Shown piece by piece: positions 12,701 to 49,010 of a DNA stretch of 64,000 nucleotides. The DNA comes from Dipteronia dyeriana. Taxonomy: Eukaryota; Streptophyta; Magnoliopsida; Sapindales; Sapindaceae. Within the stretch, counting starts at the first letter, position 1. Each line of letters starts with the position of its first letter. The notes below the pieces were generated by a model. That model saw only the letters and a list, made by a program, of their open reading frames with translations, did not search any database and was not told the origin of the DNA. The position numbers and the translations under genes are program-made. The stretch spans positions 83,011,819-83,075,818 of the forward strand of contig CM065295.1 in NCBI GenBank assembly GCA_032871835.1, written 5' to 3'.

Positions 12701-12825
12701 CAGCGATCTTCAAGGCATGATCATTACCCATAAATACAGTTCCTCTTGAGATAGGTTCATATTTGTAAAACCATTCTCTTCGAGAGGTCATGTGCCAGGT
12801 TGCTGTTGAGTCTAAAATCTAGACG
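9717..12825 (-). pseudogene. Copia element A pol (protease, integrase, RT, RNase H), decayed
   Basis: Read from high to low coordinates, the order is that of Ty1/copia pol. The protease remnant has ILDSTATWHMT near 12.8 kb. A 398-codon open frame (11,439-12,635) holds the pre-integrase and integrase core: DLIHSDVWESP, LRTDNGKEYT and NRVAERMNKN supply the D, D, E residues. The usual H-H-C-C finger is altered to a single visible C-K-Y-Y. RT follows in 10,938-11,264 (NKWVYKIKW, HARLVVKGY, LDVKTAFLHGEL) and 10,659-10,931 (KSLYGLKQAPRCWY, then NVDDM in place of YVDDM). RNase H lies at 9,769-10,569 (MDSDFAGD, KSTTGYVF, SRTKHI). Stops between these blocks show it is dead. It resembles the Tnt1-type group of plant copia elements. 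Confidence 0.9.
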
Positions 12826-13175
12826 TCTGTAAACTGCTTTCTGCCTTCACAATAGTTGTTGCCTCGCTGTATAGAACTTCACCATCGTCTGAAGTACTTG
12901 TTGCACATCCCTGAGAATTTGATGACACAGGAGCTTTGTTGCCTCCATTCTTCTCGTTTAGTCAAAACTCACTTTTGACATGCCCTTTCTTACCACAACA
13001 ATAGCATTTGATGTTCTTCTTACTTCTTGATTTTGATCTACCATGATTGTGACTCCCACTGGGGCCACGTTCCATTGATCTCCCTCTTGTCATCGATAAA
13101 GCTTCTGCTTGTTGTGAATTTACCAACTTGTCTTCCCTATTCTTACGTTTACTTTCTTATTCTAAAATAGCAGCC
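12826..13175. repeat. 350-bp perfect direct repeat, left copy
   Basis: This part of the copia gag/protease region, from TCTGTAAACTGCTTTCTGCC to AAAATAGCAGCC, is repeated at 15,092-15,441 with no difference that I can see. The two copies flank the small LTR element exactly. On the minus strand it encodes the gag zinc knuckle region (CYCCGKKGHVK). Confidence 0.95.
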
Positions 13176-13810
13176 TGTCACGGGCCGCAAGCTTACAAGC
13201 CCAGGAGTCCAACAAAGACCCTTACTCTGCCCAACTCCTGGAAGATTCTAGAGACCTCTCCATAATTCCAACATTGGTCAAGCTTCTGGAAGTCTCTAGC
13301 AACTCAACCATCTCTACACCATTTTTGTACTAAGCTAGATAGGTGTAGAATAATCTAGAACCTTGTAAAGGCATGTAAATACATGTAGAGTATTCTAGTT
13401 AGATGTAGAATATTCTGGAGACTTAATCTCCACTATTAGACTAGATTAGTCTAGAACATTCCTTAAGGAGGTGGCTCACCTATAAATAGCCAACCCCTCT
13501 CATTTGTAAATCATCCTAGAATTCTTACATTAATACAACTCTTCCTTTGAGAGTATTTGTGAGCATTCTAGTGATCCAGAGCATCGTGGTCTTCCTTCGC
13601 AAGTCCACCGATCCTCTGCCTCGGGGCTTCCCATTTCGACCCTCTCCCGACTCTCCTCACTCTAAATCGCTTCCGTATCTTCACACTCGGCAACGTTCGT
13701 CCAAGAACTTGCCCGAGTGTCCCTCTTACAAGGCTTACTTAGCAACGTTCCCACGGAAGTTGCCTAAGTGCCGCACGGGTGTGCCTAGATGAAATTCTCA
13801 CCCCGTGACA
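13176..13810 (+). mobile_element. 5' LTR of a small non-autonomous LTR element (TRIM/LARD-like)
   Basis: A 635-base LTR starting TGTCACGGGCCGC and ending CCCCGTGACA, so its ends are inverted complements (TGTCACGGG / CCCGTGACA). It contains a TATAAATAG box (near 13,480) and CATCCTAGAATTCTT. It is nearly identical to 14,455-15,091. The tRNA-Met primer site follows directly. Confidence 0.92.
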
Positions 13811-14454: not shown

Positions 14455-15091
14455 TGTCACGGGCCGCAAGCTTACAAACCCAGGAGTCCAACAAAGACCC
14501 TTACTCTGCCCAACTCCTGGAAGATTCTAGAGACCTCTCCATAATTCCAACATTGGTCAAGCTTCTGGAAGTCTCTAACAATTCAACCATCTCTACACCA
14601 TTTTTGTACTAAGCTAGATAGGTGTAGAATAATCTAGAACCTTGTAAAGGCATGTAAATACATGTAGAGTATTCTAGTTAGATGTAGAATATTCTGGAGA
14701 CTTAATCTCCACTATTAGACTAGATTAGTCTAGAACATTCCTTAAGGAGGTGGCTCACCTATAAATAGCCAACCCCTCTCATTTGTAAATCATCCTAGAA
14801 TTCTTTCATTAATACAAACTCTTCCTTTGAGAGTATTTGAGAGCATTCTAGCGATCCAGAGCATCGTGGTCTTCCGTCGTAAGTCCCTCCGATCCTCTGT
14901 CTCCGGGGTCCCCATTTCGACCCTCTCCCGACTCTCCTCACTCTAAATCGCTTCCGCATCTTCACACTCGGCAACGTTCGTCCAAGAACTTGCCTGAGTG
15001 TCCCACTTACAAAGGTTTACTTAGCAACGTTCCCACGGAATTTGCCTAAGTGCCGCACGGGTGTGCCTAGATGAAATTCTCACCCCGTGAC
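14455..15091 (+). mobile_element. 3' LTR of the small LTR element
   Basis: Near-identical to 13,176-13,810. It ends CCCCGTGAC and lacks the final A of the LTR before it joins TCTGTAAACTG. There is no normal 5-bp target-site duplication; instead the flanks are the 350-bp direct repeats. Confidence 0.9.
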
Positions 15092-15441
15092 TCTGTAAAC
15101 TGCTTTCTGCCTTCACAATAGTTGTTGCCTCGCTGTATAGAACTTCACCATCGTCTGAAGTACTTGTTGCACATCCCTGAGAATTTGATGACACAGGAGC
15201 TTTGTTGCCTCCATTCTTCTCGTTTAGTCAAAACTCACTTTTGACATGCCCTTTCTTACCACAACAATAGCATTTGATGTTCTTCTTACTTCTTGATTTT
15301 GATCTACCATGATTGTGACTCCCACTGGGGCCACGTTCCATTGATCTCCCTCTTGTCATCGATAAAGCTTCTGCTTGTTGTGAATTTACCAACTTGTCTT
15401 CCCTATTCTTACGTTTACTTTCTTATTCTAAAATAGCAGCC
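15092..15441. repeat. 350-bp perfect direct repeat, right copy
   Basis: Same sequence as 12,826-13,175. It continues into unique copia gag sequence (CGCAATGTTATCGAATAG) that is absent after the left copy, so the right copy is joined to the original downstream sequence and the left copy to the original upstream sequence. Confidence 0.95.
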
Positions 15442-26370: not shown

Positions 26371-28155
26371 ATCCCCCACTTGGTCAAATATTCTTCACCC
26401 CTACCACTTCTAAGTATTTTAATCTTTCTCCCTAATTAGTTTTCAACTTCGGCCTTATAAATTTTAAATGCATTAAAAGCCTTATATTTATGCTTTAGCA
26501 AATAAACATAAGTATATCTAGAACAATCATATATAAAAGTTATAAAATATCGTTTAGCACCCCTTGTTAGTATGTCATTTAATTCATATAAATCACTATG
26601 CACTAGATCAAGTAATTGGGAAGATCTTTCAACAACACCATGAAAAGGTTTCTTTACCATTTTTGATTTAGTGCATATTTCACATTGTTCAAAATTACTA
26701 ACATCACAAGATAGTAAACCACACTTTATGATTCTTTTAATTGTACTAATACCTATATGCGAAAGTCTAATATGCCATAAAGTAATAGAATTTGAAGCAA
26801 ACATATAAGCAGAACTCGAAACATTTTTATTGTTATCATTGTCAACAATACAAAGCTTAACCATCCCATAACATGAATAACCCTTTCCAATAAAATTTCC
26901 AGACTTGGTAAGGATTAATTTTCCAAATTCATACACAGATTTTATTCCAGGTTTACCTAACAAATCACCACTAACTAAGTTCTTGTTCATACCTGGAACA
27001 TATAATAAGTTAGCTAAAGTGATTTTTCTTCCTGAAGTGAATGAGAGTTCGATGCTTCCTTTGCCAAGGACCCTAGAGCGACCTTCGTTTCCCATTTAAA
27101 CCTCTTGTCTATTATTGACTTCTTCAAATGTCTTGAAAAGATATTTGTCATAAGAAACGTGGACTGTTGCACAAGTATCGTACCACCAGCCCTGAACTTT
27201 TCCTTGGACAACACATATCTCGCTCACAACAACAATGATTTCTTCTTTTTTGGCATTAACCTTGGCCTTTCACTTTATTTCTTTCGAAATTTGCAATCAC
27301 GAGCATAATGCCCAGATTTTCCACAAACAAAGCATACCCCTTTTTTCTATTCTTGAATTTTCCTTGATCCTGCCTTGGACCAAGAGAATTTCTAGAATTT
27401 TCTTTTTTATGGTTGTTTCCAAAATTTCTTTTCTGGTTGTTTCCTTTGGGATCGGTGGGTTTGTTTACAACATTTGTCTTGCCAATGGTAAACTCTTCAA
27501 TAGTCTTGCCTCTTGAACGTGATTCTTCCTCAATGAGAAAATGATTCTGAATCTCTTCCAAAGAGTAATATTCGCTCTTGTGAATAATCCTCTTCCTGTA
27601 GCCTTTTCAACTTGGTGGCAATTTAGCAATAATTGCACCAAGTTGAAACGGTTCAGGAAGTTCAATTTTGACAGCCCTCAGATTATTGACTATGATTTGC
27701 ATTTCATGAATTTGAGGTAAAAGAGGTTTTTCATAAAAAAAAATGAAATCAAAATATTTTGAGATCATAAACTTTTTTGTACCTTCCTCATCGGCCTTAT
27801 ATTTGTAGTGCAGTGCATTCCATATCTCCTTGCAGATTTAGTGTTGGTGTAGAGATCATAGAGTCTGTCAGATAATGCATTCAGGATGTGTCCACGACAG
27901 ATTAACTCATCCTTCTCACGTTTATTTTTGGCGGCCTTCACCTCATCAGAATCTTTATCTGTAGGCTTTGGCAGTGGCTGCAAGTCAGGATCCAGAATGT
28001 AGAAAATTTTCAAAGCAGTTAGTAGAAACTTCAATTTGTCCTATCAGCGGGTGAAGTTTAAGCCATCAAAACGATCGAGTCGAACAAGGTCTTGATTCAT
28101 CGTTTGATTGTGAATACAATCGTCTCGGTCTCCAGTGAAAATATCGATTTTTGAT
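26371..28155 (-). pseudogene. Copia element B interior: gag, protease, partial integrase; RT deleted
   Basis: Minus-strand order is gag (28,034-27,256), then protease and integrase. Gag has LLTALKIFYILDPDLQPLP and, past breaks, CRGHILNALSDRLYDLY. The knuckle-containing stretch is rich in Lys/Asn and reads ALFVENLGIM near its finger, with the Cys residues largely lost. The 26,436-27,095 frame (219 codons) has LANLLYVPGMNKNLVSGDLL, LWHIRLSHIG..IKRIIKCG, CEICTKSKMVKKPF and LVHSDLYE: the pre-integrase zinc finger and the first catalytic Asp. The frame then runs straight into the PPT, so the rest of integrase, RT and RNase H is missing by deletion. No standard PBS is recognised next to the 5' LTR. 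Confidence 0.85.
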
Positions 28156-29329: not shown

Positions 29330-30130
29330 CTCTCGCTACCTTGATAAAAGTTTGATTATTAGAAAAAAAAATGCTCAATAATTTGATAAATATTCTCGAT
29401 CCTTTGATAAAATTTCTCGATCCCATGAAAAAAAATCTCGATAATTTGATAAATATTCTCGATCCCTTGATAAAATTTCTCGATCAATTGAAAAGGTTCT
29501 CGATCCCTTGAAAAAAGTTATCGATCAATTGAAAAAGCTCTTTCTCGATCCCTTGATAAAATTTCTCGATCAATTGAAAAGGTTCTCGATCCCTTGAAAA
29601 AAGTTATCGATCCCTTGAAAAAGCTCTCGATCCCTTATAAAATGTTCTCGATCCCTTGATAAAAGTTCTCGAACCGTTATAAAAGTTCTCGAACCGTTAT
29701 AAAAGTTCTCGAACCCTTGAAAAAGTTCTCGATCCCTTAGAAAAAGTTCTTGTCCCAACAAAAAGTTCTCGAACCCTTGTAAAAGTTCTCGAACCCTTGT
29801 AAAAGTTCTCGAACCCTTGTAAAAGTTCTCGATCCCTTGAAAAAGTTTTTGAACCCTTGAAAAAGTTCTGGATCCCTTATAAAAAATTCTCGTTCTCAAC
29901 AAAAAGTTCTCGAACCCTTGTAAAAGTTCTCGATCCCTTGTAAAAGTTCTCGAACCCTTGAAAAAGTTCACGATCCCTTATAAAAGGTTCTCAATCCATT
30001 TGAAAAAAGCTCGATCCCTTAGAAAATGTTCTTGATCCATTTCCTAAAAGCTCGATCCGTTTGTAAATGTTCTCGATCCCTTACAAAAAAAGTTTGACCC
30101 CTAAGAAAACGTTCTCGATCCCTTATAGTT
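29330..30130. repeat. 20-bp minisatellite, left subterminal region of the MULE
   Basis: About 35-40 imperfect tandem units of the form AAAAGTTCTCGATCCCTTGA (20 bases), with CGAACCCTTGT variants at 29,690-29,960. The opposite strand is open for 133 codons (29,570-29,971), encoding a 20-residue repeat that is just the minisatellite read in three successive frames. Confidence 0.9.
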
Positions 30131-30217: not shown

Positions 30218-30280
30218 ATGGATCAGGTTAGATGGGAGCAATTACCTGACGAAGGTCAAAGGTTTTTTTGTTCCGATAAC
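30218..30280 (+). pseudogene. First exon fragment of the mudrA-like gene
   Basis: An intron-like AG precedes GACAATGG; the frame MDQVRWEQLPDEGQRF..SDN then runs into the left target duplication of LTR copy 1. The same frame resumes at 37,078 as QGMYVSRHM. The LTR element therefore split the transposase gene near its start. Confidence 0.55.
30276..30280. repeat. Target-site duplication ATAAC (left) of LTR copy 1
   Basis: ATAAC at 30,276-30,280 is repeated exactly at 37,078-37,082, immediately outside the two LTR ends. Confidence 0.9.
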
Positions 30281-31679
30281 TGACACGTTCTAAAGAAGTG
30301 TTCCTACTCCTAAGTATAAGAGTGTCATAGTAATAAATTAACCAGTAAGACCGGGTCGAACCATAGGGAGGTTGTTCACTTGTCCTTGTAGAATTAATTA
30401 TCTAGATTAACTAAGAAGTTTGTTATAAAAATGTAAATCAATTAAAATTAAAACTGGGGCTAAGGGATCCACTGTTGGTAATTCGAATATGATCAAATAA
30501 TTAATATTTAGTCTAGAATAATGGGAGGGTATTCCACTTCACTGATCACTGTCTGATAGATGTGGGTAAAAGTACTCACTGTGCTAGACAACATCTGTCT
30601 CTCTACAGTGAGTAAAAACTCCACAAAGATCAGAAAGGATAAACCACTCTCTGATAGATATGGGTAAAAGTACTCACTGTTCTAGATAATATCTGTCTGT
30701 CTACAGTGAGTAAAAACTCCACAAAGATCAGAAAGGATAAACCACTCTCTGATAGATATGGGTAAAAGTACTCACTGTGCTAGACAATATCTGTCTAACT
30801 ACAGTGAGTCAAAAACTCCACAAAGATCAGAGGAGAGAAAGCAAAAAAATAATAAACTTACCATAATTGGATCATATTTTCCATACCAACAGTATCACCT
30901 TTGGCCTCAATTATATAAAATTAGCCAGACACAATTTAACTAGAAAATAGTTATTTTATTTAAACAGAGAATTTGAGAATAAAAGAGAGAGAATTTCACA
31001 AATCTAATATCAGATTTGGATTTAGAATGTGTAAATTAGGGGTGAGAGGTCCCCTATTTATACAAAATACGGATGAAAATTAACTATCTGATGAATTTAG
31101 AATGGAGCGTCCAGATTCGCCACGTCATCAACAAATAGTGAACAATGAACAGTAAACAGTAAACGCATCCGTGAAAGTCAATAGTGAACAGTGCACCGGC
31201 TTCTAGAATATGATTCTCTGCAACACGTGTACGGTGCACTCACAACTCGGGCCAATAGAATTGTGTCACGTCATCGGTCAATAATCTTCTAGAAAGTCAA
31301 CTATGAATAGTGCACCGACTTCTAGAATGTGATTCTCTGCAGCCGCGTGTACGGTGCACTCGCAGTTTGGTCCAATAGTAATGTGTCACATCATCAGGAA
31401 CATTGAATAGTCAAAATTACAAAAATATCCTTTGTGGCCTTCATAAGGTTTTTGACTTTCTAAACTTGAAAACGATGTTTGTTTTGCCATCTGACTTCTC
31501 CATAATTCTGAATTGATCGAATTACCTCTTAAATACAAAGAAAAATACATTGATTACTACACAACACGTTTATTTAAGCGAGCGAACGAAATTATATCTA
31601 AATTAGAGAATTAATCATATTGGAAGTGTAAAATGGTGATATTATCCATTAGTAAACATGCACTTTTCAGTGTTAATCA
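30281..31679 (-). mobile_element. 3' LTR of LOG-carrying LTR element, copy 1
   Basis: A 1,399-base LTR with TGACACGTTCTAAAGAAGTG at its left and GTGTTAATCA at its right end (TG...CA when read on minus). At 30,530-30,830 it holds three ~125-base tandem units with CTCTGATAGATATGGGTAAA and CTCACTGTGCTAGACAA. At 31.1-31.4 kb are GTGAACAGT-type short repeats. It pairs with 35,663-37,077 and with both LTRs of copy 2. Confidence 0.92.
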
Positions 31680-31703
31680 TACCCCCCCCCCCCCCCCCCC
31701 CCC
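31680..31703 (-). other. Polypurine tract, expanded poly-G
   Basis: TA plus 22 consecutive C on plus (poly-G on minus) directly abuts the 3' LTR. Copy 2 has only GGGGGGTA at the equivalent place (44,578-44,585), so the run expanded in copy 1 or was misassembled. Confidence 0.8.
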
Positions 31704-32912
31704 AACCATCTTATTGCTAGTCCCTAACAACTAAAGCGAAAATAGTAAAAACTCAAATTCAAATCTCTAAACTACCAAATAGACAAACTCTCACATACCT
31801 CTTTTTGACAACTAGTCATCAATTGAGTATCAATCAAACTTTCTTGTGCTAAATAAAGATCAACACAATAACTATGAGATTCAATTGAAATCAAGCAACA
31901 TTTTCATTCCGAAATCTCATCAAGGCTTCTTCCTTAGGCAGTAGTTTTATTTCTTTTCTTTTTTTGGTTTTTTTTTAATATAACGAAATTGGAAACAAAC
32001 ATTCCATCTTTAATCCATGTATCGAGCTTTAGACCAATGACTCCCAAACCAGTTGCCTTTAGGGTATTAACTGTTAAAATACTCCTACAGGGTTAATTAC
32101 TCGGATAGCATATGTTTTTTTTTAATAGTACAATTCTCTTAAGCTTTCTCTTTAACCCGTGTAACGAGCTTTGGGTCAATGACTCCCAAACCAGTTGGTC
32201 TTAGGTCATTAGGTGTTAAAGCACCCCTCGAACCTAATTACTCGAGTTAAAGATGCTAAGAAACTGTATTTTATTCTTATCCAGACTCTACCATTTTACG
32301 CAAACACTCTTTGATTACTATGGCATGAGGTCCGGCTACTAAGTAAGAGTTTTGGTCACAACACATAAAATTATTATTATTCTTACTACTATATATTTTT
32401 TGAAACAAGACCACTGCCTTTGGTTGTTACCCTTGAATGATGTTTAAGAACTAAATATCGTAAAATCTCAACTTACTGCACATAATCACGTGTCGATGTG
32501 CGAGTGTGTCCAGAATAGTTTGAAAATTTTCTCAAGATGACTTAACGAACAAAAGAATTAGTCAATGATATCACAATGGAGAGTTTATAAATTTGAATAG
32601 TCAGAATAGAGGAAAAAAATGCATCAGAACTATAAAGATGCGTCTCAGAAGTATCTAAAAGATCTCCTTACTCGACCATCTTTACAAAAAAAATGTTCAG
32701 AAGTTAGTTTTTTTTTTTTTTTGAAAAATAAAAGTTATTGAATCAACTATCCCCTTCCCCCCAACCAGAACGAGACATTGTCCCCAATGTCTTTAGAAAG
32801 AGGTAAGGTTTAGAAGATATCACCTGAACAACTTGAAAGACAACAAAATCCTGTAAAACAACAAAAGAAATACAGAATAAAGGAAATAAAATGCATAAAA
32901 ACCATGGGACAA
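31704..32912 (-). other. Non-coding 3' interior of LTR copy 1
   Basis: No open frame of note. At 32,025-32,245 two ~125-base units share CGAGCTTT, CAATGACTCCCAAACCAGTT and AATTACTCG; the same units occur at 44,030-44,270 in copy 2. Downstream of the LOG stop there is an A/T-rich tail that also matches copy 2 (43,373-43,560). Confidence 0.7.
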
Positions 32913-33566
32913 TCACAAACTGAGATTTAGATCAATTCCGTGTTTCTTGTTCTCTTCATCAATAGACCAATCTATTTTGGAGGTTGAGGGATCTGGCTCA
33001 TAATTAAAAGCCTGTAACTGGTCAATCAGCTCATGATGACTTGAATCAGAGATAAAGATTTTTCGGATTGAAGGTGGAATGTAATAATTTTTCTGAGCAT
33101 GATCAAGAAATGAAAGCAAACCATCATAAAATTTATTAACATTCAACAAACTGATGAGTTTCTCATGGATGTGTAGTTGCGCCCAGGATGCCATTGTAAA
33201 GATTTCTTCTAAGGTTCCAAAACCACCTGGCAAAGCTATAAACGCATCAGCATGATGTAACATAGCAGTCAATCTTTCAGGCATACCTGAAACAGCTAGC
33301 TCTTTGCCGTTTGTCTTTCCGATGATGTTTGTTGCGGCCATAGGTTTTAGGACAATACCAAGAACTTGACTACCTCCGTCTCGTGCAGCTCGTGAAACAC
33401 ACCATATTAATCCCAAGTTACCTCCTTCATACACTAGGTGTATTTTTCGCTCAGCCAAAACCTTACCAAGTTGAGTTGCAGTCTCAACAAACTCTCTGTA
33501 TTTCCCATAATTAGTGCCACCAAACACACAAATGTTTGTGAATTGTTTAGTTGAATGCGACGCCAT
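32913..33566 (-). CDS. LOG: LOG-type cytokinin riboside 5'-monophosphate phosphoribohydrolase, inside an LTR retrotransposon
   Basis: 217 residues, one exon. LOG enzymes remove ribose 5'-phosphate from cytokinin nucleotides to give active free bases, usually in the cytosol and nucleus. The frame covers the whole family domain. NICVFGGTNYGKY (11-23) replaces the usual CVFCGSSxGxxxxY. VYEGGNLGLIW (45-55) replaces VYGGGxxGLMG. GMPERLTAM keeps the conserved Arg. PGGFGTLEE (113-121) is the PGGxGTxxE signature, followed by WAQLHIHEK and LLNVNKFYDGLL. The C-terminus is LNLSL. An upstream in-frame Met (33,668) is disfavoured: the family begins near MASHS, and a CTATAAATAC box lies 75 bases above this ATG. 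The gene is on the same strand as the element, between gag and the 3' LTR. Most plant LOG genes have introns. The altered YEGG and GLIW loops make full activity uncertain. Confidence 0.93.
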   Translation of the reverse strand: MASHSTKQFTNICVFGGTNYGKYREFVETATQLGKVLAERKIHLVYEGGNLGLIWCVSRAARDGGSQVLGIVLKPMAATNIIGKTNGKELAVSGMPERLTAMLHHADAFIALPGGFGTLEEIFTMASWAQLHIHEKLISLLNVNKFYDGLLSFLDHAQKNYYIPPSIRKIFISDSSHHELIDQLQAFNYEPDPSTSKIDWSIDEENKKHGIDLNLSL

Positions 33567-34151
33567 TAATGCACTCTCTGAATTTTTCTTTTGAATGTTT
33601 ATGAGTGCTTTGAAGCAAAAAAAGGAAAACAAATGTTTGTATTTATAGATCCCGAAAAGGTAACACAATGATACACCTATATGTATAGAGCGACGTATTT
33701 GTCAATGATATTATATCCAAATGGTTCAAAAATCAAAAGTAAAGAACAATAATTACAAAAGACATTAAATACGGAAAGAAAAAAATAATAAAAACAAAAG
33801 GATATTTACTGGTAGTTGTGATTGTGGCTCACATCTTCCTATGGGTCGGAGATATGTTTCCCATCCAATTTTCTTATAAATTGACAAACAGGGTCTTTTA
33901 AAGTCAGATTCCCAAGACTATATTGTGCATGTTCTTTTTAAAATTGTGGTCATAATCGGTCAATTGTCATTTGCACATATCCACTAGGATGTGCATCAAG
34001 AGTCGTTAGGATATTATCCAATGACTCCCTACGCAAACCATGCCTAATGAATAAAATTTTATCTTCCCGATTATTAGACACCATTCCTAAATAACTACAA
34101 CGTGTGTTGCAAGTTGTACGTGCACATTTGTGACAAGTAACTCATAACTTC
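33567..34151 (-). other. LOG leader and unassigned interior of LTR copy 1
   Basis: From 33,567 to about 33,726 is LOG-specific leader that is absent from copy 2. From 33,727 to 33,840 the sequence is shared with copy 2 (43,207-43,325). From 33,860 to 34,140 the minus strand can be read as REDKILFIRHGLRRESLDNI and LDAHPSGYVQMTID with stops; I do not recognise this product. Confidence 0.5.
33641..33647 (-). promoter_or_regulatory. TATA box upstream of the LOG gene
   Basis: Minus strand reads GATCTATAAATACAAAC, 75 bases from the ATG. This suggests that the gene brought its own promoter rather than depending on the LTR alone. Confidence 0.5.
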
Positions 34152-34391
34152 TTAGCCCTTCATTTTTTTTGCAAGGTTACTTCTTCTAAAACCAGGCATG
34201 TAAGATATAAATGAATCATCGGACTCACCTGCTAGACGTACCTTAGCTTCAATCAACCAGCGAAATTCAACAGGAATTTTGTATATCATCAGTAAGTGTA
34301 ATCTTTCAGAACGTGCTTTGTAAATCTTTTTCAGAGTATTATAGGGCAACGATGGAAAATGTTTTCGTAGGTTTGTGAAAAATTCTTCCAT
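34152..34391 (-). CDS. Hypothetical 79-residue ORF in LTR copy 1
   Basis: A clean frame from ATG, with MEEFFTNLRKHFPSLPYNTL at its start and RWLIEAKVRLAGESDDSFIS later, ending in a Lys-rich tail. It is basic, with no signal peptide or membrane segment. It does not look like gag, protease or RT. It lies in the sense direction between the gag remnant and LOG. Codon-like composition and the adjoining readable stretch at 33.86-34.14 kb suggest the remnant of a second captured gene, but it may equally be chance. It is absent from copy 2, which has a deletion here. Confidence 0.3.
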   Translation of the reverse strand: MEEFFTNLRKHFPSLPYNTLKKIYKARSERLHLLMIYKIPVEFRWLIEAKVRLAGESDDSFISYMPGFRRSNLAKKMKG

Positions 34392-34639
34392 GCCTTGTTT
34401 TGGGGATCAGTTATTTGGAAAACTTAATTAAACCGACTTGAATTGTCACGGAGTACCGTTATCCGCCACTTAACCGAGGTTATATAGCAAAACACAACAA
34501 GCAAAAATTAAACTTAGAAATTAATCCTGCAAAAATTCAAAACGTAAAAGCAAACAAAAACAAAAAAAAATAATTGCAAACACAAATAAAGTCAAAAGCA
34601 AAAGATTTGTTTACTCACCTTTGTAACAAGGGTCAAAAA

Positions 34640-35160
34640 AGACGGCAAAGTCTTTTTGAAAATCTTTATTTTCTAAGAGTCTTTTTGTAACCAAGTTTTA
34701 GCTTTATCTTTTAAGGAAAAAGGGAAAAACTTAAGCCTAGTTATATCCATGCTAACATTTTGGTCAGTGCAAGTGTTACAGACTTCCTCAAACTCTCTAA
34801 GATGAAAACATGGGTTTTCATATTCAAGACCGTAAAAATTGGGTAAAAGTTTAATAATTCCCAGTTTAAAATTAAACTGTGCTAAATTTGGTGGGAAAGC
34901 TATGCATGAAGGTGCTCCAGTACGTGTGGGGTTCATATAGTCTCTAAGAGTTCTAGGTGGATTGGGTTAATGTGTTGGTCATGATCAACATAAGGCTAAT
35001 GGTTGCTGTGTTGAGACACGTTGTCAAGGTTGTCTAAAAGGTTCTCAGCTTGGTTTCCTGCTGGATGTCTAAGTGGGTTTTCAGTCATGCTGTTGGTAAA
35101 TGTGGGTGATTGTGATCTCCTAATTAATTTACCACTAGATGTTCGAGACCAACGTCTCAT
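34640..35160 (-). pseudogene. gag remnant of LTR copy 1
   Basis: The frame starts at 35,160 with MRRWSRTSSGKLIRRSQS and reads ENPLRHPAGNQAENLLDNL before a stop. The gag domain resumes in another frame at 34,936: MNPTRTGAPSCIAFPPNLAQ, then FNFKLGIIKLLPNFYGLEYE, HLREFEEVCNT and LKFFPFSLKDKAKTWLQ. This is the Retrotrans_gag domain of plant Ty3/gypsy elements (LRDYxxP...PSC..P......F.IK..LI..L..F.GL..E.P..HL..F...C). It ends there; there is no knuckle, protease, RT or integrase, so the element is non-autonomous. Confidence 0.85.
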
Positions 35161-35638
35161 GCAAATTTAATGAGGGTTCATGGAGGTGAAATACACAAAT
35201 ATGAAGAAAATAAACTAAAAAAGAAAAAAAAAAGTGATGAAAATAACATGCAAAAATTTTAAGGGTGTAAATGCAAACATTCACAAATTTTGGGGTAAAA
35301 ATGTAAATAATTATAAATATAGGGACTAAAGTGAAAATATGATAATTACATGGACTGATATGAAAAAATAAAAAATAAAATGACCTATATGCAAATACAA
35401 ACTAGATCAAAGCTAAAATGCAAATAAAAATTTGAATGACTAAAATGCAAAAATATGATTAATGATTACAAGTGTTTTTTTTTTAAGTGGATGAAGTTTA
35501 TGATTGAGATGAGTGATGCAAAATTGAATGCAAAATTGAATATAAAATAAGAACAAAGAAGATAGAAAAGAAAAAAAATAGCAAAACTAAAATAAAATTA
35601 AAAAGAAATTACTTCTACGAAGAAAAAACGGATTTACC

Positions 35639-35656
35639 TCCCCGGCAGCGGTGTCA
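35639..35656 (-). other. Primer-binding site of LTR copy 1 (tRNA-Asp type)
   Basis: Minus strand TGACACCGCTGCCGGGGA lies just inside the LTR. It matches the complement of the plant tRNA-Asp 3' end (TGGCGCCGTTGCCGGGGA) except for two G-to-A changes and one T-to-C. Copy 2 retains TGGCGCC. Confidence 0.75.
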
Positions 35657-35662
35657 AAAACT

Positions 35663-37077
35663 TGACACGTTCTAAAGAAGTGTTCCTACTCCCAAGTATA
35701 AGAGTGTCATAATAATAAATTAACCGGTAAGACCGGTTCGAACCACATGGAAGTTTTTCACTTGTCCTTGTAGAATTAATTATCTAGATTAATTAAGAAG
35801 CTTGTTATAAAAATGTAAATCAATTAAAATTAAAACTGGGGCTAAGGGATCCACTGTTGGTAATTCGAATATGATCCAATAATTAATATTTAGTCCAGAT
35901 TAATGGGAGGGTATTCCACTCCACTGATCACTCTTTGATAGATGTGGGTAAAAATACCCACTGTGCTAGACAACATCTGTCTGTGTACAGTGAGTCAAAA
36001 CTTCATAAAGATCAGAGGGGATAAACCACTCTCTGATAGATATGGGTAAAAGTACTCACTGTGCTAGACAATATCTGTCTGTCTACAATGAGTCAAAAAC
36101 TCCACAAAGATCATAGGGGAGAAACCACTCTCTGATAAATATAGGTAAAAGTACTCACTGTGCTAGACAATATCTGTCTAACTACAGTGAGTAAAAAACC
36201 CCACAAAGATCAGAGGGGAGAAAGCAAAAAAATAATAAACTTACCATAATTGGATCATATTTTCCATACCAACAGTATCACATTTGGCCCCAATTATATA
36301 AAATTAGCTAGACATAATTTAACTAGAAAATAGTTATTTTATTTAAACTGAGAATTTGAGAACAAAAGAGAGTGAATTTCATAAATCTAATATCATATTT
36401 GGATTTAGAATGTGTAAATTAGGGTTGAGAGGTCCCCTATTTATACAAAATACGGATGAAAATTGACCCTCGGATGAATTTCGAATGGAGCATCCAGATT
36501 TCACCACGTCATCAGTGAACAGTGAACAATGAACAGTAAACGCATCCGTAAAAGTCAATAGTGAATAGTGCACCAGCTTCTAGAATATGATTCTCTGCAG
36601 CACGTGTATGGTGCACTCACAACTCGGGCCAATAGAATTGTGTCACGTCATCGGTCAATAATCTTCTAGAAAGTCAACTATGAACAGTGCACCGACTTCT
36701 AGAATGTGATTCTCTGTAGCCGCATGTACGGTGCACTCGCAGTTTGATCCAATAGTAATGTGTGTCATCAGGAATAGTGAAAGTCAATTGTGAACAGTGA
36801 ATTGTCAAAATTACAAAAATATCCTTCGTTGTCTTCCTAAGGTTTTTGACGTTCTAAACTTGAAAACGAAGTTTGTTTTGCCATCTAACTTCTCCATAAT
36901 TCTGAATTGATAGAATTACCTCTGAAATACAAAGAAAAATACACTGATTACTACACAACACATTTATTTAAGCAAACGAACGAACAAAATTATGTCTAAA
37001 TTGGGGAATTAGTCATATTGGAAGTGTAAAATGATGATATTATCCCTTAGTAAACATACACTTTTCAGTGTTAATCA
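35663..37077 (-). mobile_element. 5' LTR of LOG-carrying LTR element, copy 1
   Basis: A 1,415-base partner of 30,281-31,679 with the same ends (TGACACGTTC left, TGTTAATCA right) and the same internal 125-base tandem units at 35,930-36,220. Scattered differences between the two LTRs show that the insertion is not very recent. Confidence 0.92.
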
Positions 37078-39656
37078 ATAACCAAGGAATGTATGTGTCA
37101 AGACATATGATATAAGAATAGCTGGTGCCGATCGTGCAAATTGTTGTGAAGTACAATGTGAACAAATACATTGCTGATCTGCAATCTATATCAATCGTTT
37201 CCGGAACAACATGTCACACATTTGTAAGAGACGATGACGATGTTTTGTTTATGCTAGGGGAAGATAGGGTGATCCCTCAAGTATGTGTCAGTCTAATTGA
37301 GAGGGTTGCAGGAGGTGTCATTGGTGAAGAAATCCCTCCTCGTGATAACACCCAACAATTTTGATCTTCGGGCGGAAGCAACCAGTTGTTCACAGACAGA
37401 AATGGGGATTAACGGTAGGGAAAACCTATGTGGTGTCCCACCTGAAGTAGCCGACCATGGTGATATAGTTGGACCTCAATTGGACGATGATTTTGGTTGT
37501 CAAATTGAGCCAAATATACATCCGGTAGATAATGTAGCGAACAATGAAGAAGATGAATAACCATTCGAAACGGAAAGACGTGAAAGACGTGTACACAGAT
37601 GTAGTTTCACTGCAGTAGATATAGCTGGGACCTCTGAGGTCCTACCTAATGTAACTCCAACTGATTTTAAGAATGCCACAATGTGGGTTATTCCAGGAGC
37701 AAAATCATACTCGTTTGGTATGGGTGGAAGCAGAAACTTGGTAGAAGATGAACCTACATGAATGATATATAAAATGTAATTTTTTCCTACTAAAAAGGAT
37801 TTGAAGAGATTGGCTGGGCATTTTACAATGCGGCACAACTTCGAGTGGAAGGTGAAAAGGTCGAATAAGACAACATTACATCTGGTTTGTTTGATGGACA
37901 ACTGTACGTGGAAATTAAAAGCGGTAAGGAGAGATGAAGGGACATACTTCCAAGTAAGAAGTTTTATCAACGAACACACTTCTCCTTTGGAGGAGATTCA
38001 CCGCCGCCATCGATAAGCTAGTGCAGTCATAATTGGAGAAATGGTTGCACCTAGATTGTAACAACAGGATGGTAGACTAATGCGTCCGAAAGACATAATC
38101 ATTGACATGAAAATAATGTATGGCATCCAAATCATGTATAATAAGGCACATCAAGCCCTTGATTATGCGTTGTCACTGACTTATGGAACGCATGAGGAAA
38201 CCTTCCAACTACTGTCATCATTCGGTTACGTGTTGGAACAAAAAAATTCTGAAACAATCATTGACTTACAATATGATGAAAATGGTAAATTCCTCTACTT
38301 TTTCACGTCGTTTGGTGCCTCAGTTAAAGGATTCCAGTGGTGTATGCTTCCAGTTATTATCGTTGATGGTACCCATTTAAAGGGTAGATTCGGGGGCACA
38401 ATGTTTGTTGCAAGTGCACAATATGGGAATGAACAGGTTTATCCAATTGGTTTTGAGTACAGTGACTCGAAAAAAAACCTATCATGGGAGTGGTTTTTGG
38501 ATAACTTGAAAGGTGCCATTGGCCATATAGATGATTTGGTATTCATTTATGATCAACATGCAAGCATTGAAGCAGAGATTTCTAAAGTGCTCCCTTATGC
38601 CACACATACCGTATGTTGCTGGCACTTTAATGAAAATATTAAGAAACGATATATAAGAAAGGATTTTGAAGTAATAATGGACAAAGCAGCCCGAGCGTAC
38701 ACCGAGTTGCAATATAACCGGTACATGGAAGAGTTACGAAACTTGCACCCGAATACATATGATTATGTAATTGATGTCAGTCCACATAAGTGGTCCCATG
38801 TACACAGCCCCGACAAAAGGTACAGGATGATGAAAAAAAATACTGCAGAATGCATAAACTCATACCTCATTTTTGCATGGAAACTGTCTATGTTGACTCT
38901 GGCAGAATTCATTAGGAATATGCTACAATGTTGGTTTCACGATCGTCATAGCGCTGCACAGTCCATGCATCATCAGTTGACCGATGCAGCACATCTTGTG
39001 ATCCTAAAACGTGTGGATAAGTGCAATTTTATGACCGTAAATCCAGTTGACTGGAACATATTCTCGGTTAAACGATCTGAAAAATAGTGGACCATTGACT
39101 TAGCGTGGAAGACCTGCACATGCAACAAATTTCAAATGGATATTCTTCCATGTTCTCAAGCTCTCGCTGCCGCAAGGTACATCATACGTTTTAATCTACG
39201 GTTAATATTACTGAAACGTGAATTTCATTGTTTTCATTATTTTCATTGTTTTTACAGGGACCGAAACATTGATTTTACATCCCTGTATACGGACTACTAC
39301 AAGAGATAAACACTTATTGATGCGTACTCGGTTCCTATTATACCGGTTGGACATCTTTCTACTTGGATTGTGCCATCAGACATCACTAAGAGAGTGGTTT
39401 TGAATCTAATCTCCAGGAGACAATCAGGCCGCTCGAGGGCAGGTTGCCATATCTCGACTTCGAAAAGGATAACTACACAGAACTGTAGAAGATGTGGACA
39501 CCAGAGCATAATTCCAGGAGATATTCTAACCCAGCTTTGATTAATGAAGGTCTGATCAGAGTTGTTCCTGAAGAATACAGGTGCAAGTGTACCATCTGTC
39601 ATACAATTGGCCACAACAGACAAACGTGCCCTATCAGAGGCTCCACCATGGAATGA
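37078..39656 (+). pseudogene. mudrA-type MULE transposase, interrupted
   Basis: Continues from 30,218-30,280 beyond the LTR insertion. Order on plus: an N-terminal part (37.1-37.6 kb); the MuDR DNA-binding region (DFKNATMW, KKDLKRLAGHFTMRHNFEWK, CTWKLKAVRR) with stops; then a 335-codon clean frame (38,080-39,087) holding the MULE domain. The catalytic residues are visible there: Asp in VDGTHLKGRFGG (residue 96), Asp in FIYDQHASI (158) and Glu in NTAECINS (257), plus CCWHF. After a stop come a degraded SWIM finger (CTCNKFQMDILPCSQAL, with Gln in place of His) and a zinc knuckle CTICHTIGHNRQTC near 39.6 kb. Several stops and frameshifts outside the core make it non-functional as it stands. Confidence 0.85.
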
Positions 39657-41192: not shown

Positions 41193-42488
41193 TGATTAAC
41201 AATGAAAAATGTATGTTTACTAAGAGATAATATCATCATTTTACACTTCCAATATGATTAATTCCCCAATTTAGATATAATTCCGTTCGCTCGCTTAAAT
41301 AAATGTGTTATGTAGTAATTAGTGTATTTTTCTTTATATTTCAGAGGTAATTCTATCAATTCAGAATTATGGAGAAGTTAGATGGAAAAATAAACATCGT
41401 TTTCAAGTTTAGAACGTCAAAAACCTTAGGAAGACCATGAAGGGTATTTTTATAATTTTGACTATTCACTGTTCACAGTTGACTTTCACTGTTCACAGTT
41501 GACTTTCATTGTTCCTGATGATGTGGCACATTCCACTTGGCCCAAACTGCGAGTGCACCGTACACACGGCTACAGAGAATCACATTCTAGAAACGGGTCT
41601 ACTGTTTACTGTTTACTGTTTACTGTTCACTGTTTACTGTTCACTATTCATTGATGACGTGGTGAAATCTGGACGCTCCATTCTAAATTCATCCGATGGT
41701 CAATTTTCATCCGTATGGGGGCCTCTCCCCCCTAATTTCTAGATTCTGAATCTAAATCTGATATTAGATTTGTGAAATTCTCTCTTTTATTTTCAAATTC
41801 TCTGTTTAAATAAAATAACTATTTTCTAGTTAAATTGTGTCTGGTTAATTTTATATAAATGGGGCCAAAGGTGATACTGTTGGTATGAAAAATATGATCC
41901 AATTTTGGTAAGTTTATTATTTTTATGCTTTCACCCATCTGATCTTTGTAGAGTTTTTGACTCACTGTAGATAGACAGATATTGTCTAGCACAGTGGGTA
42001 CTTTTACCCATATTTATCAGAGAGTAGTTTCTCCCATCTGGTCTTTATGGAGTTTTTGACTCACTGTAGACAGACAGATATTGTCTAGCACAGTGAGTAC
42101 TTTTACCCATATCTATCAGAAAATGGTTTATCCCCTTTAATTTTTATGAAGTTTTGACTCACTGTAGACAGACAGATGTTGTCTAGCACAGTGAGTACTT
42201 TTACCCACATCTATCAGAGAGTGGTGAGTGGAGTGGAATATCATCCCATTAATCTGGACTAAATATTAATTATTTGATCATAATCGAATTACCAACAGTG
42301 GATCTCTTAGCCCCAGTTTTAATTTTAATTGATTTACAATTTATAACAAGCTTAGTAATTAATCTAGATAATTAATTCTATAAGGACAAGTGAACAACCT
42401 CCATGTGGTTCGATCCGGTCTTACAGGTTAATTTATTACTATGATACTCTTATACTTGGGAGTAAGAACACTTCTTTAGGACGTGTCA
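41193..42488 (+). mobile_element. 5' LTR of LOG-family LTR element, copy 2
   Basis: 1,296 bases from TGATTAACAATG to GGACGTGTCA. It matches the copy 1 LTRs in inverted orientation, including the 125-base units at 41,930-42,230. The left flank AAGAG and the right flank ATGAG (46,059-46,063) agree at 4 of 5 bases as the target duplication. Confidence 0.9.
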
Positions 42489-44585
42489 AGTTTTTGGCGC
42501 CGCTGCCGGAGAGGTAAGTCCGTATTTTCTTTGTAGAAGTAATTTCTTTTTAATTTTATTTTAGTTTTGTTATTTTTTTTTTATCTTCTTTGTTCTTATT
42601 TTGTGTTCAGTTTTGCATCACTCATCTCAATCATAAACTTCATGCACTTAAAAAAAAAAAAACACTTTTAATCATTAATCACATTTTTGCATTTTAGTCT
42701 TTCAACTTTTTATTTGCATTTTAGTGTAGAGCTAGTTTGCATTTCCATATAGGTCATTTTATTTTTTATTTTTACATATCAGTCCCTGTAATTATCACAT
42801 TTTTTCTTTAGTCCTTAGATTTATTGATATTTACACTTTCACCCCAACACTTGTGTATATTTGCATTTACACCCCTAGAATTTTACATCTTGTTATTTTT
42901 ATCACTTTTTCTTTTATTTTCTTCATTTTTATGTATTTCACCTCCATTAACCCTCATTAAATTTGTATGAGACGTTGGTCTCGAACATCTAGTGGTAGAT
43001 TAATTAGGAGATCTCAATCATCCACATTCACTAACAACATGGCTGAAAATACACTTAGACATCCAGCAGGAAACCAAGCCGAGAACATGCACAGTATAGT
43101 CTTGGGAATCTGACTTTAAAAGACCTTGTTTGCCAATTTATAAGAAAATTGGATGGGAAGCATATCCCTGACCCATAGAGGGCGTTGAAGCCGTTTCTGG
43201 ACGTAAAACTAGAGGAAGATGTGAGCCACAATCACAACTACCAGTAAATATTCTTTTATTTTTATTATCTTTTTCCTTCCGCATTTAATGTCTTTTGTAA
43301 TTATTATTGTTTACTTTTGATTTTTGAAGAGAACAAGTAATGCATAATTGATCTGAATCTCAGTTTGTGATTGTCCCATGGCTTTTATGCATTTTATTTT
43401 CCTATATTTTGTATTTTTTTTTTATTGTTTTGTAGGATTTTGTTGTTTTTCAAGTTGTTCAGGTGATATCTTCTAAACCTTACCTCTTTCTAATGACATT
43501 GGGGAACAATGTCTCGTTCTAGTTGGGGGAGGGGATAGTTGATTAAATAACTTTTATTTTTAAAAAAAAAAACTTCAGACTTTTTTTTTTGTAAAGATGG
43601 TCGAGTAAGAAGATCTTTTAATACTTCTGAGACTCATCTTTATAGTTCTGATACATTTTTCATCTCTTCTAACTATTTAAATTTATAAACTCTCCACTGT
43701 GATATCATTGACTAATCCTTTTGTTCATTAAGTCATCTTGAGAAAATTTTCAAACTATTCTAGACACACACGCACATTGACACGTGATTATATGCAGTAA
43801 GTTGAGATTTTACGACATTGAGTTCTGAAACATTATTCAAGGGTAACAACCGAAGGCAGTGGTCTTGTTTAAAAATATATATAGTAATAATAATAATAAT
43901 ATTTTTGTGTGTTGTGATCAAAACTCTTACTTAGTAGTCGGGCCTCATGCCTCAGTAAGCATAGAGTGTTCATGCAAAACGGTGGAGTCTGGATAAGAAT
44001 AAAGTGCAGTTTTTTAGCCTCTTTAACTCTAGCAATTAAGTCCGAGGGGTGCTTCAACACCTAATGCCCTAAGACCAACTGGTTTGGGAGTCATTGACCA
44101 CCCAAAGCTCGTTACAGAGGTTAAAGAGAAAGCTTAAGGGAATTGTACTATTAAAAAAAAAACATCTGCAATCCGAGTAATTAAGCACGTATGAGTGTTT
44201 TAACACTTAATACCCTAAAGCCAATTGGTTTGGGAGTCATTGGCCTAAAGTTCGCTACATGGATTAAATATGGAATGTTTGTTTCCAATTTTGTTATATT
44301 AAAAAAAAAAAAAAAAAAAGAAATAAAACTACTGCCTAAGGAAGAAGCTTTGATGAGATTTCGGAATGAAAATGTTGTTTGATTTCAATTGAATCTCATA
44401 GTTATTGTGTTGATCTTTATTGAGCACAAGAAATTTTGATTAATAACTCAATTGATGACTGGTTGTCAAAGGGTGAGAAAAGAGGTATGGGAGAGTTTGT
44501 CTATTTGGTAGTTTAGATATTTGAATTTGAGTTTTTACTATTTTCGTTTTAATTGTTAGGGACTATCAATAAGCTGTGGGGGGTA
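42489..44585 (+). pseudogene. Interior of LTR copy 2 with gag start and LOG 3' remnant
   Basis: PBS TGGCGCCGCTGCCGG at 42,495 (tRNA-Asp type). The gag start at 42,967 reads MRRWSRTSSGRLIRRSQSS and ends at GNQAEN, where a deletion joins it to sequence equivalent to 33.9 kb of copy 1. At 43,207-43,328 it matches the copy 1 region just upstream of the LOG leader, then jumps to GAAGAGAACAAG and ATTGATCTGAATCTCAGTTT with TGA. This is the last ~14 codons of LOG (IDLNLSL and stop, with one inserted stop). The 3' non-coding part and the GGGGGGTA polypurine tract follow. It also has a ~42-base stretch (GAGGGCGTTGAAGCCG) that copy 1 lost. Confidence 0.85.
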
Positions 44586-46058
44586 TGATTAACACTGAAA
44601 AGTGTATGTTTACTAAGGGAGAATATCATCATTTTACACTTCCAATATGACTAATTCCTCAATTTATGCACAATTTCGTTTGCTCGCTTAAATAAATATG
44701 TTGTATAGTAATTAGTGTATTTTTCATTGTATTTCAGAGGTAATTCGATAGATTCAGAATTATGGAGAAAGTAGATGGCAAAACAAACATCGTTTTCAAG
44801 TTTAGAACGTCAAAAACTTTAGGAAGGCCACGATGGGTATTTTTATAATTTTAACTATTTCACTATTCACATGTGACTTTCACTGTTTACAGTTGACTTT
44901 TACTGTTCACAGTTGACTTTCACTGTTCACGGGTGACTTTCACTGTTCACGGTTGAATTTCACTGTTTACGGTTGACTTTTACTGTTTACAATTGACTTT
45001 CACTATTCCTGATGACATGGCACATTCCTATTGGCCCAAACTGCGAGTGCACCGTACACACGGCTGCAGAGAATCATATTCTAGAAACGGGTGCACTGTT
45101 CACTATTCACTTTTCACGGATGCGTTCACTGTCACTGTTCACTATTCACTTTCACGGATGTGTTTACTGTTCACTGTCACTGTTCATTGTTCACTGTTCA
45201 CTATTTACTGATGACGTGGTGAAATCTAGATGCTCCATTCTAAATTCATCATATGGTTAATTTTCATTCGTATTTTGTATAAATAGAGGGTCTTTCCCCC
45301 CTAATTTCCAGATTCTGCATCCAAATCTGATATTAGATTTGTGAAATTCTCTCTCTTTTGTTCTCAAATTCTCAGTTTAAATAAAATAGTTATTTTCTAG
45401 TTAAATTATGTCTGGCTAATTTTATATAGCTAGGGTCAAAGGTGATACTGTTGGTATGGAAAATATGATCCAATTTTGTTAAATTTATTATTTTTATGCT
45501 TTCTTCCCTCTGATCTTTGTGGAGTTTTTGAATCACTGTAGATAAGCAGATATTGTCTAGCACAGTGAGTACTTTTACCCATATTTATCAGAGAGTGGTT
45601 TCTCCCCTCTGATCTTTGTAGAGTTTTTGACTCACTGTAGACAGACAGATATTGTCTAGCACAACAAGTACTTTTACCCATATCTATCAGAGAGTGGTTT
45701 ATCCCCTCTAATTTTTATGGAGTTTTGACTCACTGTAGACAGACATATGTTGTCTAGCACAGAGAGTACTTTTACCCACATCTATCAGAGAGTGGTCAGT
45801 GGAGTGGAATACCATCCCATTAATCTGACTAAATATTAATTATTGGATCATAATCGAATTACCAACAGTGGATTTCTTAGCCTCAGTTTTAATTTTAATT
45901 GATTTACAATTTATAACAAGCTTAGTAATTAATCTAGATAATTAATTCTATAAGGACAAGTGAACAACCTCCATGTGGTTCGACCTGGTCTTACCGATTA
46001 ATTTATTACTATGACACTCTTATACTTGGAAGTAGGAACACTTCTTTAGGACGTGTCA
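44586..46058 (+). mobile_element. 3' LTR of LOG-family LTR element, copy 2
   Basis: 1,473 bases, TGATTAACACTG to GGACGTGTCA. It is longer than its partner because of expansion of TTCACTGTT(C/T)AC(A/G)GTTGACT-type short repeats at 44,865-45,005 and 45,090-45,215. The 125-base units are at 45,500-45,790. Confidence 0.9.
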
Positions 46059-47959: not shown

Positions 47960-49010
47960 ACTACGTTCTTTGAAAAACATTCTCGATCTTTTGAAAAACA
48001 TTCTCGATCTTTTGAAAAACATTCTCGATCGTTACAAAGATATTCTCTATCATTTGAAACAAATTCTCGATCCTTTAAAAATTCTTCTCTATCATTTGAA
48101 AAATCTTCTCGATCATTTTAAAAAATCTCGACCCTTTGAAAAACATTCTCTATCGTTAGACAAATATTCTCGATCATTTGAAACAAATTCTCGATCCTTT
48201 GAAAAACGTCTCGAATCTTTGAAAATAGTCTCGATCCTTTAAAAAACTTCTCGATTCTTTGAAATAAGCTCGATCCTTTGAAAAACTTCTCGATCATTTT
48301 GAAAAATCTTCTCGATCGTTAGAAACAAATTCTCGATTCTTTGAAAATATTCTCGATCCTTTGAAAAAGTTCTCGATTCTTTGAAAAATCTTCTCGATCA
48401 TTTTAAAAAATCTCGACCCTTTGAAAAACATTCTCGATCGTTTGAAACAAATTCTCGATCGTTTGAAACAAATTCTCAATCGTTTGAAAATATTCTCAAT
48501 CCTTTGAAAATATTCTCGATCCTTTGAAAAACTTCTCCGAAAATAGTCTCGATCCTTTGCAAAAACTTCTTGATTCTTTGAAAAACTTCTCAATCATTTT
48601 GAAAAATCTTCTCGCTCATTTTAAAAAATCTTGACCCTTTGAAAAACATTTTCGATCGTTAGAAACAAATTCTCGATTCTTTGAAAATAGTCTCAATCCT
48701 TTGAAAATATTCTCTATACTTTGAAAAACTTCTCGATTCTTTGAAAATATTCTCGATCCTTTGAAAATAGTCTCGATCCTTTGAAAAACTTCTCGATTCT
48801 TTGAAAAACTTCTCGAACATTTTGAAAAATCTCTACCCTTTGAAAAACATTCTCGATCGTTAGAAAAAAATTATCGATCATTTGAAAAGCTTCTCGATTC
48901 TTTGAAAAAATTACTCGAATCTTTCTAAAAAAACCTCGATACTGTTTAAAAAAACCTGATTTCGATTGAAATATTCTCGATTTATTTTTATTTATAAAAA
49001 AAAAAAACAA
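47960..49010. repeat. 20-bp minisatellite, right subterminal region of the MULE
   Basis: About 50 imperfect units of TTCTCGATCCTTTGAAAAAC (20 bases) with ATCATTT and ATCGTTAG variants. It is in the same orientation as the left array, not inverted. Long reading frames through it are repeat translations. Confidence 0.9.

Follow-up and report, generated by a model that had tools for sequence, protein, structure and literature searches.

A LOG-family gene and a carlavirus-like reading frame in a decaying LTR retrotransposon of Dipteronia dyeriana, very probably of an old Sapindales lineage

Architecture of the element

The genome of Dipteronia dyeriana (Sapindaceae) holds an element that carries, between long terminal repeats (LTRs), an open reading frame (ORF) of the LONELY GUY (LOG) family. 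It lies in a stretch of 64,000 nucleotides of contig CM065295.1 (assembly GCA_032871835.1, positions 83,011,819 to 83,075,818; 33% GC), called the window from here on, in whose coordinates all positions are given. The element, copy 1 in what follows, is an LTR element at 30281-37077, with its sense strand on the minus strand and LOG in its sense direction. A broken ORF resembling a carlavirus nucleic-acid-binding protein sits just upstream of LOG; it was overlooked in the original prediction, an earlier reading of this DNA. As argued below, this is very likely a decaying non-autonomous LTR retrotransposon, Ty3/gypsy being the most likely superfamily, that belongs to an old Sapindales lineage and has two cargo ORFs between a gag remnant and the 3' LTR. 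The features of copy 1, all on the minus strand except the target site duplication (TSD), are:

30276-30280, left TSD, ATAAC, exact
30281-31679, 3' LTR (in the sense of the element), with TATAAATA at 31055-31062
31703-31682, polypurine tract (PPT) of 22 G, adjoining the 3' LTR
33566-32913, LOG ORF of 217 amino acids, open (PF03641, TIGR00730; motifs PGGFGTLEE and EGGNLGLIW)
33567-33838, spacer between the cargo ORFs, containing TATAAATA at 33640-33647
34391-33839, broken ORF, similar to the carlavirus nucleic-acid-binding protein (Carla_C4), with four stops and one frameshift
34673-35166, span of the likely gag remnant (broken pieces 34999-35166 and 34676-34966), no Pfam match
35656-35640, primer-binding site (PBS) TGACACCGCTGCCGGGG, adjoining the 5' LTR
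35663-37077, 5' LTR, with TATAAATA at 36438-36445
37078-37082, right TSD, ATAAC, exact

Copy 1 thus has paired LTRs with TG..CA ends, a 5-bp TSD, a PBS (which we take to be tRNA-Asp-like) and a PPT, and the original prediction had the LTRs, TSD, PBS and PPT in place, together with the 217-residue sense frame. The two LTRs differ at 93 of 1392 aligned sites (60 transitions, 33 transversions; Kimura two-parameter distance 0.070) and by six indels, which amounts to 93% identity with gaps excluded and 91.6% with gaps counted (BLAST). All four LTRs of the two copies in the window contain three tandem units of 98-99 bp (30547-30831, 35929-36223, 41929-42222 and 45500-45796). The gag remnant of the original prediction stands as a likely one, the pieces within 34673-35166 presumably being gag; of 15 internal ORF pieces scanned, none scored above a curated Pfam cut-off for gag or pol domains. 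The same search found no gag-pol in the domain order of gypsy elements, and Ty3/gypsy as the most likely label comes to the element only via its tie to the Citrus gypsy LOG elements discussed below.

Two insertions from a LOG-bearing ancestor

Copy 2, at whose existence the original prediction hinted by speaking of a 'copy 1', lies on the plus strand, in the orientation opposite to that of copy 1:

41193-46058, plus strand, copy 2 element
41193-42488, plus strand, 5' LTR
43083-43178, plus strand, end of the carlavirus-like ORF, stop included
43325-43370, plus strand, LOG remnant of 46 bp (last 14 codons and stop, with one new in-frame stop)
44586-46058, plus strand, 3' LTR

Its flanks, AAGAG and ATGAG, match at four of five positions (an imperfect TSD) and are unlike those of copy 1; the divergence of its LTR pair is 0.094. 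Aligned with gaps, the two copies correspond over both LTRs, on the PBS side, in the tail of the broken ORF, in the spacer and in the 3' region. The body of LOG is deleted from copy 2 as a 770-bp gap corresponding to 33728-32959 of copy 1, where TGAA is found at both ends of the deletion. Because the similarity between the copies stops at the element ends, they are two separate insertions and not a segmental copy; because copy 2 retains the 3' end of LOG at another site, LOG was present in the ancestor of both. The proposal that the element had mobilised LOG is thereby borne out, and the circumstance that its author had named as fatal to it, entry of the segment at 32.9-33.7 kb into copy 1 alone after insertion, is contradicted by that same 3' end. 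Between the copies the divergence is 0.090 in one internal stretch and 0.107 in another, and 0.105-0.163 between LTRs; set against the LTR-pair values of 0.070 and 0.094, the internal range of 0.090-0.107 would fit a common source followed by separate insertions.

It might be argued instead that a host LOG gene or retrocopy landed in a finished element that was later duplicated within a genomic segment. LOG does have an open frame and, with its end 73 bp upstream, a TATAAATA of its own; the LOG 3' end in copy 2, however, lies within that copy's own LTR pair at another site, amid unrelated flanks, with similarity ceasing where the elements do, and this explanation is scarcely credible.

Two features lie near copy 1. 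Of two minisatellite arrays ~18 kb apart (29383-30124 and 47968-48953), whose units of 20-21 bp are similar, the first ends ~160 bp before it, and a Mutator-like element (MULE) transposase frame (38062-39084, plus strand; PF10551, E 5e-18) begins ~1 kb beyond it. The flanks of copy 1 may be part of the same Mutator-like element as that frame.

The carlavirus-like ORF and the Citrus cassette

Pieces of the broken ORF at 34391-33839 are 52-66% identical to Citrus gene models and to the protein P0240. In the Citrus models P0205, P0224 and P0238 the N-terminal part preceding LOG matches 34388-34164, 34168-33893 or nearby at 55-61% identity. The alignment of P0205 with the window consists of three collinear blocks, two of them in the broken ORF (34388-34164 and 34168-33893, joint E 4e-48) and one in LOG (33539-32916, E 3e-63). 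P0240 (147 amino acids) matches 34189-33842 (66% over 116 amino acids) and 34289-34164 (52% over 42), and also 43083-43175 in the tail of copy 2 (77% over 31). The family assignment comes from these relatives: at the Pfam Carla_C4 (PF01623) cut-off of 20.9 bits P0240 (30.5), P0205 and P0238 (both 21.9) pass and P0224 (20.5) falls below, and the window pieces themselves have no Pfam match.

Similarity runs a little way into the spacer. P0158 matches 43115-43240 of copy 2 (76% over 42 amino acids), reaching ~60 bp beyond the ORF stop, and P0193 likewise reads on, with a weak 9-amino-acid match at 33838-33812. Conservation of the spacer with Citrus models is thus seen at its upstream end only, short (9 amino acids) and weak in copy 1 and better in copy 2. 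The cassette of carlavirus-like ORF, spacer (in part) and LOG, in that order, is common to the window and the Citrus models. As both ORFs stand in this order in the Citrus models too, the lineage would have acquired the pair long before copies 1 and 2 were inserted.

Other approaches gave little. A predicted structure of P0240 with three Citrus homologues has a mean pLDDT (predicted local distance difference test) of 41.7, too low to use, and an IMG/VR scan with alignment A2 returned 38 pattern matches with no relative among them. No report of a carlavirus-like ORF paired with LOG was found in the open-licence literature among the matches listed, and 'carla' does not occur in PMC9289625.

The LOG reading frame

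The LOG ORF belongs to its family by Pfam PF03641 (E 1.2e-31) and TIGR00730 (E 1.3e-39); on NF058542 (CtkRMPhLog), a model built for bacterial and archaeal annotation, it scores 88.3 bits and stays below the 300-bit equivalog cut-off. The TATA box that the original prediction assigned to LOG is there, as TATAAATA at 33647-33640, its end 73 bp upstream of the ATG. The octamer recurs in both LTRs of copy 1, and separate transcription of LOG from it is possible.

That the frame encodes a working cytokinin-activating enzyme, as had been claimed, is doubtful. The catalytic arginine R98 and PGGxGTxxE (as PGGFGTLEE) are kept, but the near-invariant glycine loop reads EGGNLGLIW where the alignment motif is GGGxxGLMG; the substitutions are G47E, M54I and G55W in that loop, G139S and P73L. 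For the Corynebacterium LOG it has been proposed that the corresponding Arg and Glu are catalytic, and replacing the binding and catalytic residues by alanine left almost no activity (PMC4979012). The window LOG is altered at 6 of 68 near-invariant columns, against a mean of 1.25 and a maximum of 4 in 80 reference LOGs. Five of its nine private changes fall at columns conserved to at least 90%, a class that makes up 60 of 133 columns; at a 95% cut-off the figures are two of nine and 48 of 133. To judge by the residues, the protein is probably impaired as an enzyme, and since insertion it appears to have been unconstrained, its private changes bearing no sign of purifying selection.

The original prediction had pointed to an intact LOG beside a broken gag. 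The frame is indeed open, but when its neutral decay was simulated at three rates, that of the copy 1 LTRs and two higher ones, it survived in 9%, 7% and 5% of runs with indels and in 38%, 28% and 21% without. Given such survival of a neutral frame, an open LOG is weak support for a gene that was kept.

Some observations nevertheless speak against decay. Of the six near-invariant positions that differ, S18T and L76M occur in Dipteronia copies too and P137L in one; R98 and PGGxGTxxE being kept, LOG may still be active; and there are no lesions in the 654 bp of LOG and five in the ~550 bp of the neighbouring ORF (chance probability 0.02, calculated post hoc), a contrast between the cargo ORFs that hints at LOG having been kept longer. 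These points, with a frame still open where neutral survival is 5-9% counting indels, could be taken to mean that the host has co-opted the LOG of copy 1 as a working hormone gene under selection. Such a gene would hardly be expected to have three substitutions in its glycine loop, with G139S and P73L besides, or private changes that hit conserved columns at chance frequency, and we regard co-option, as judged from the predicted protein, as very improbable.

Relatives of LOG in Dipteronia and Citrus

With the window LOG as query, 3459 proteins passed E <= 1e-20, and the best 120 include four D. dyeriana proteins, apparently on three contigs, that are 74-85% identical to it. One of them, P0003, extends upstream of the ATG into LINIQKKNSKSAL; because this parallels the window frame there, LINIQKKNSESAL, the pre-ATG sequence is also common to the two. 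Three of the four copies have both motifs, P0005 neither, and near-invariant columns are altered at 5 of 64, 7 of 50, 11 of 65 and 6 of 58.

A second search, with Citrus P0060, gave 625 proteins, and the best 120 include 106 Citrus LOG-like clusters (P0060, P0117, P0122-P0239), 103 of them from Citrus x changshan-huyou and three from C. sinensis; P0140 represents 705 sequences. PGGxGTxxE is present in none of these 120. Its commonest form there is PGDLATLEA (45 with PGDLATLEAL), with the last glutamate of the motif changed to alanine; the crystal chain 5zbk differs from 5zbj by an E-to-A change, as in the Citrus proteins. This Citrus set, many of whose members are annotated as cytokinin enzymes, probably consists of element genes, and Citrus LOG-like gene models should be checked as such before hormone gene families are counted.

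In a LOG tree of 36 rows the window groups with the four Dipteronia proteins (support 100/98), these with six Citrus proteins (82/79) and all of them with two further rows (98/93). A grouping of the window LOG with four Xanthoceras LOGs, picked after the tree had been seen, was rejected (approximately unbiased test, p 2e-5).

The Citrus node, unstarred and with only moderate support at 82/79, is a point against common descent of the cargo, and it leaves some room for a one-off capture in which the host's own LOG entered the ancestor of the two local copies, with no link to the Citrus LOG elements. Plant LTR elements are well known to contain fragments of host genes, maize Bs1 being an example (PMC13317346). 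Two independent captures would, however, hardly have given both the window and the Citrus models a carlavirus-like ORF upstream, one and the same order and a shared beginning of the spacer, and a one-off event is accordingly very improbable.

Comparison with known elements

A YgdH domain (LONELY GUY family) has been described (PMC9289625) in gypsy consensus sequences of Citrus sinensis and C. clementina and, with a looser filter, of Populus trichocarpa; the finding is there called 'in line with' Steinbauerova et al. 2011. The statement of the original prediction that no LOG-carrying family was known has therefore to be withdrawn. The window element is like these in being a plant LTR element with a LOG-family ORF and differs in that no pol is seen in its copies, whereas the Citrus and Populus consensuses, found via reverse transcriptase (same source), have it. 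With the Citrus gene models it has in common the upstream ORF, the order and part of the spacer; in contrast to the best 120 Citrus-search proteins, its LOG keeps PGGxGTxxE, and the host family differs.

Plant LTR elements with additional ORFs (ENV-like in the sense direction, antisense in Grande, RIRE2 and Retand; PMC7264820) offer a parallel, the window element likewise having extra sense ORFs on the 3' LTR side of its internal region. Its cargo differs in being a LOG-family gene with a carlavirus-like ORF, and no pol is left by which to place the element. The AlkB-carrying gypsy elements of Phalaenopsis also have a host-type enzyme as cargo, kept over many copies; AlkB is a different enzyme and was shown to be active in vitro (PMC9289625). 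Maize Bs1, too, is an LTR element with host sequence, in its case partial host genes (PMC13317346), while the window element has a whole LOG frame. New here are a partner ORF of carlavirus type, a branch in Sapindaceae and a difference in motif loss between Citrus and the branch of the window.

A proposed history

The old-lineage reading set out at the beginning places the same LOG cargo as in Citrus and Populus gypsy elements in a Sapindaceae genome, now with a carlavirus-like partner, and we infer that the Citrus and Dipteronia LOG proteins likewise sit in LTR elements. In the mechanism that we propose, the LTR promoter would give an RNA spanning both cargo ORFs; pol would presumably be supplied by an autonomous relative, whose proteins would reverse-transcribe the RNA; and integration would generate the 5-bp TSD, LOG being carried along by ordinary retrotransposition. 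The cargo may once have helped the element, and either ORF could have aided it in reaching the germ line: LOG releases cytokinins in active form, hormones at work in meristems, and several plant viruses have cysteine-rich proteins that suppress RNA silencing.

To the points already raised on the other side must be added that the LTR context of the Citrus and Dipteronia proteins is a presumed one; that the superfamily assignment, with neither pol nor a Pfam gag match, rests on indirect signs; that the second piece of the broken ORF, used as a protein query under length limits that leave out the fused Citrus models (338-381 amino acids), retrieved P0240 alone and nothing from Dipteronia; and that the between-copy LTR divergence exceeds the internal, so that a single recent source is not cleanly indicated. 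The two copies need not share an immediate source.

A more far-reaching conjecture, and a doubtful one, is that since before the split of Rutaceae and Sapindaceae the lineage has carried a carlavirus-derived nucleic-acid-binding protein (perhaps anti-silencing) and a meristem-promoting LOG that together would favour transposition in the cells that found the germ line, the Citrus LOG later losing its catalytic glutamate and acquiring another function within the element. Should the pair be ancient and maintained by selection, retrotransposons may, like viruses, manipulate hormones and silencing in plants.

Other features of the window

The idea that a run of 15 A (minus strand, 32722-32708) marks the tail of a copied mRNA was rejected, since the run is ~190 bp beyond the LOG stop and in sequence common to copy 2, where it is shorter. 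Frames with a GAG-pre-integrase domain at 11442-12638 (which also has an integrase core) and 26439-27095, both on the minus strand, are pieces of other retroelements, presumably of Copia type. Finally, repeats at 12822-13809 and 14455-15441 are 97-99.7% identical with their order swapped, perhaps a recent rearrangement.

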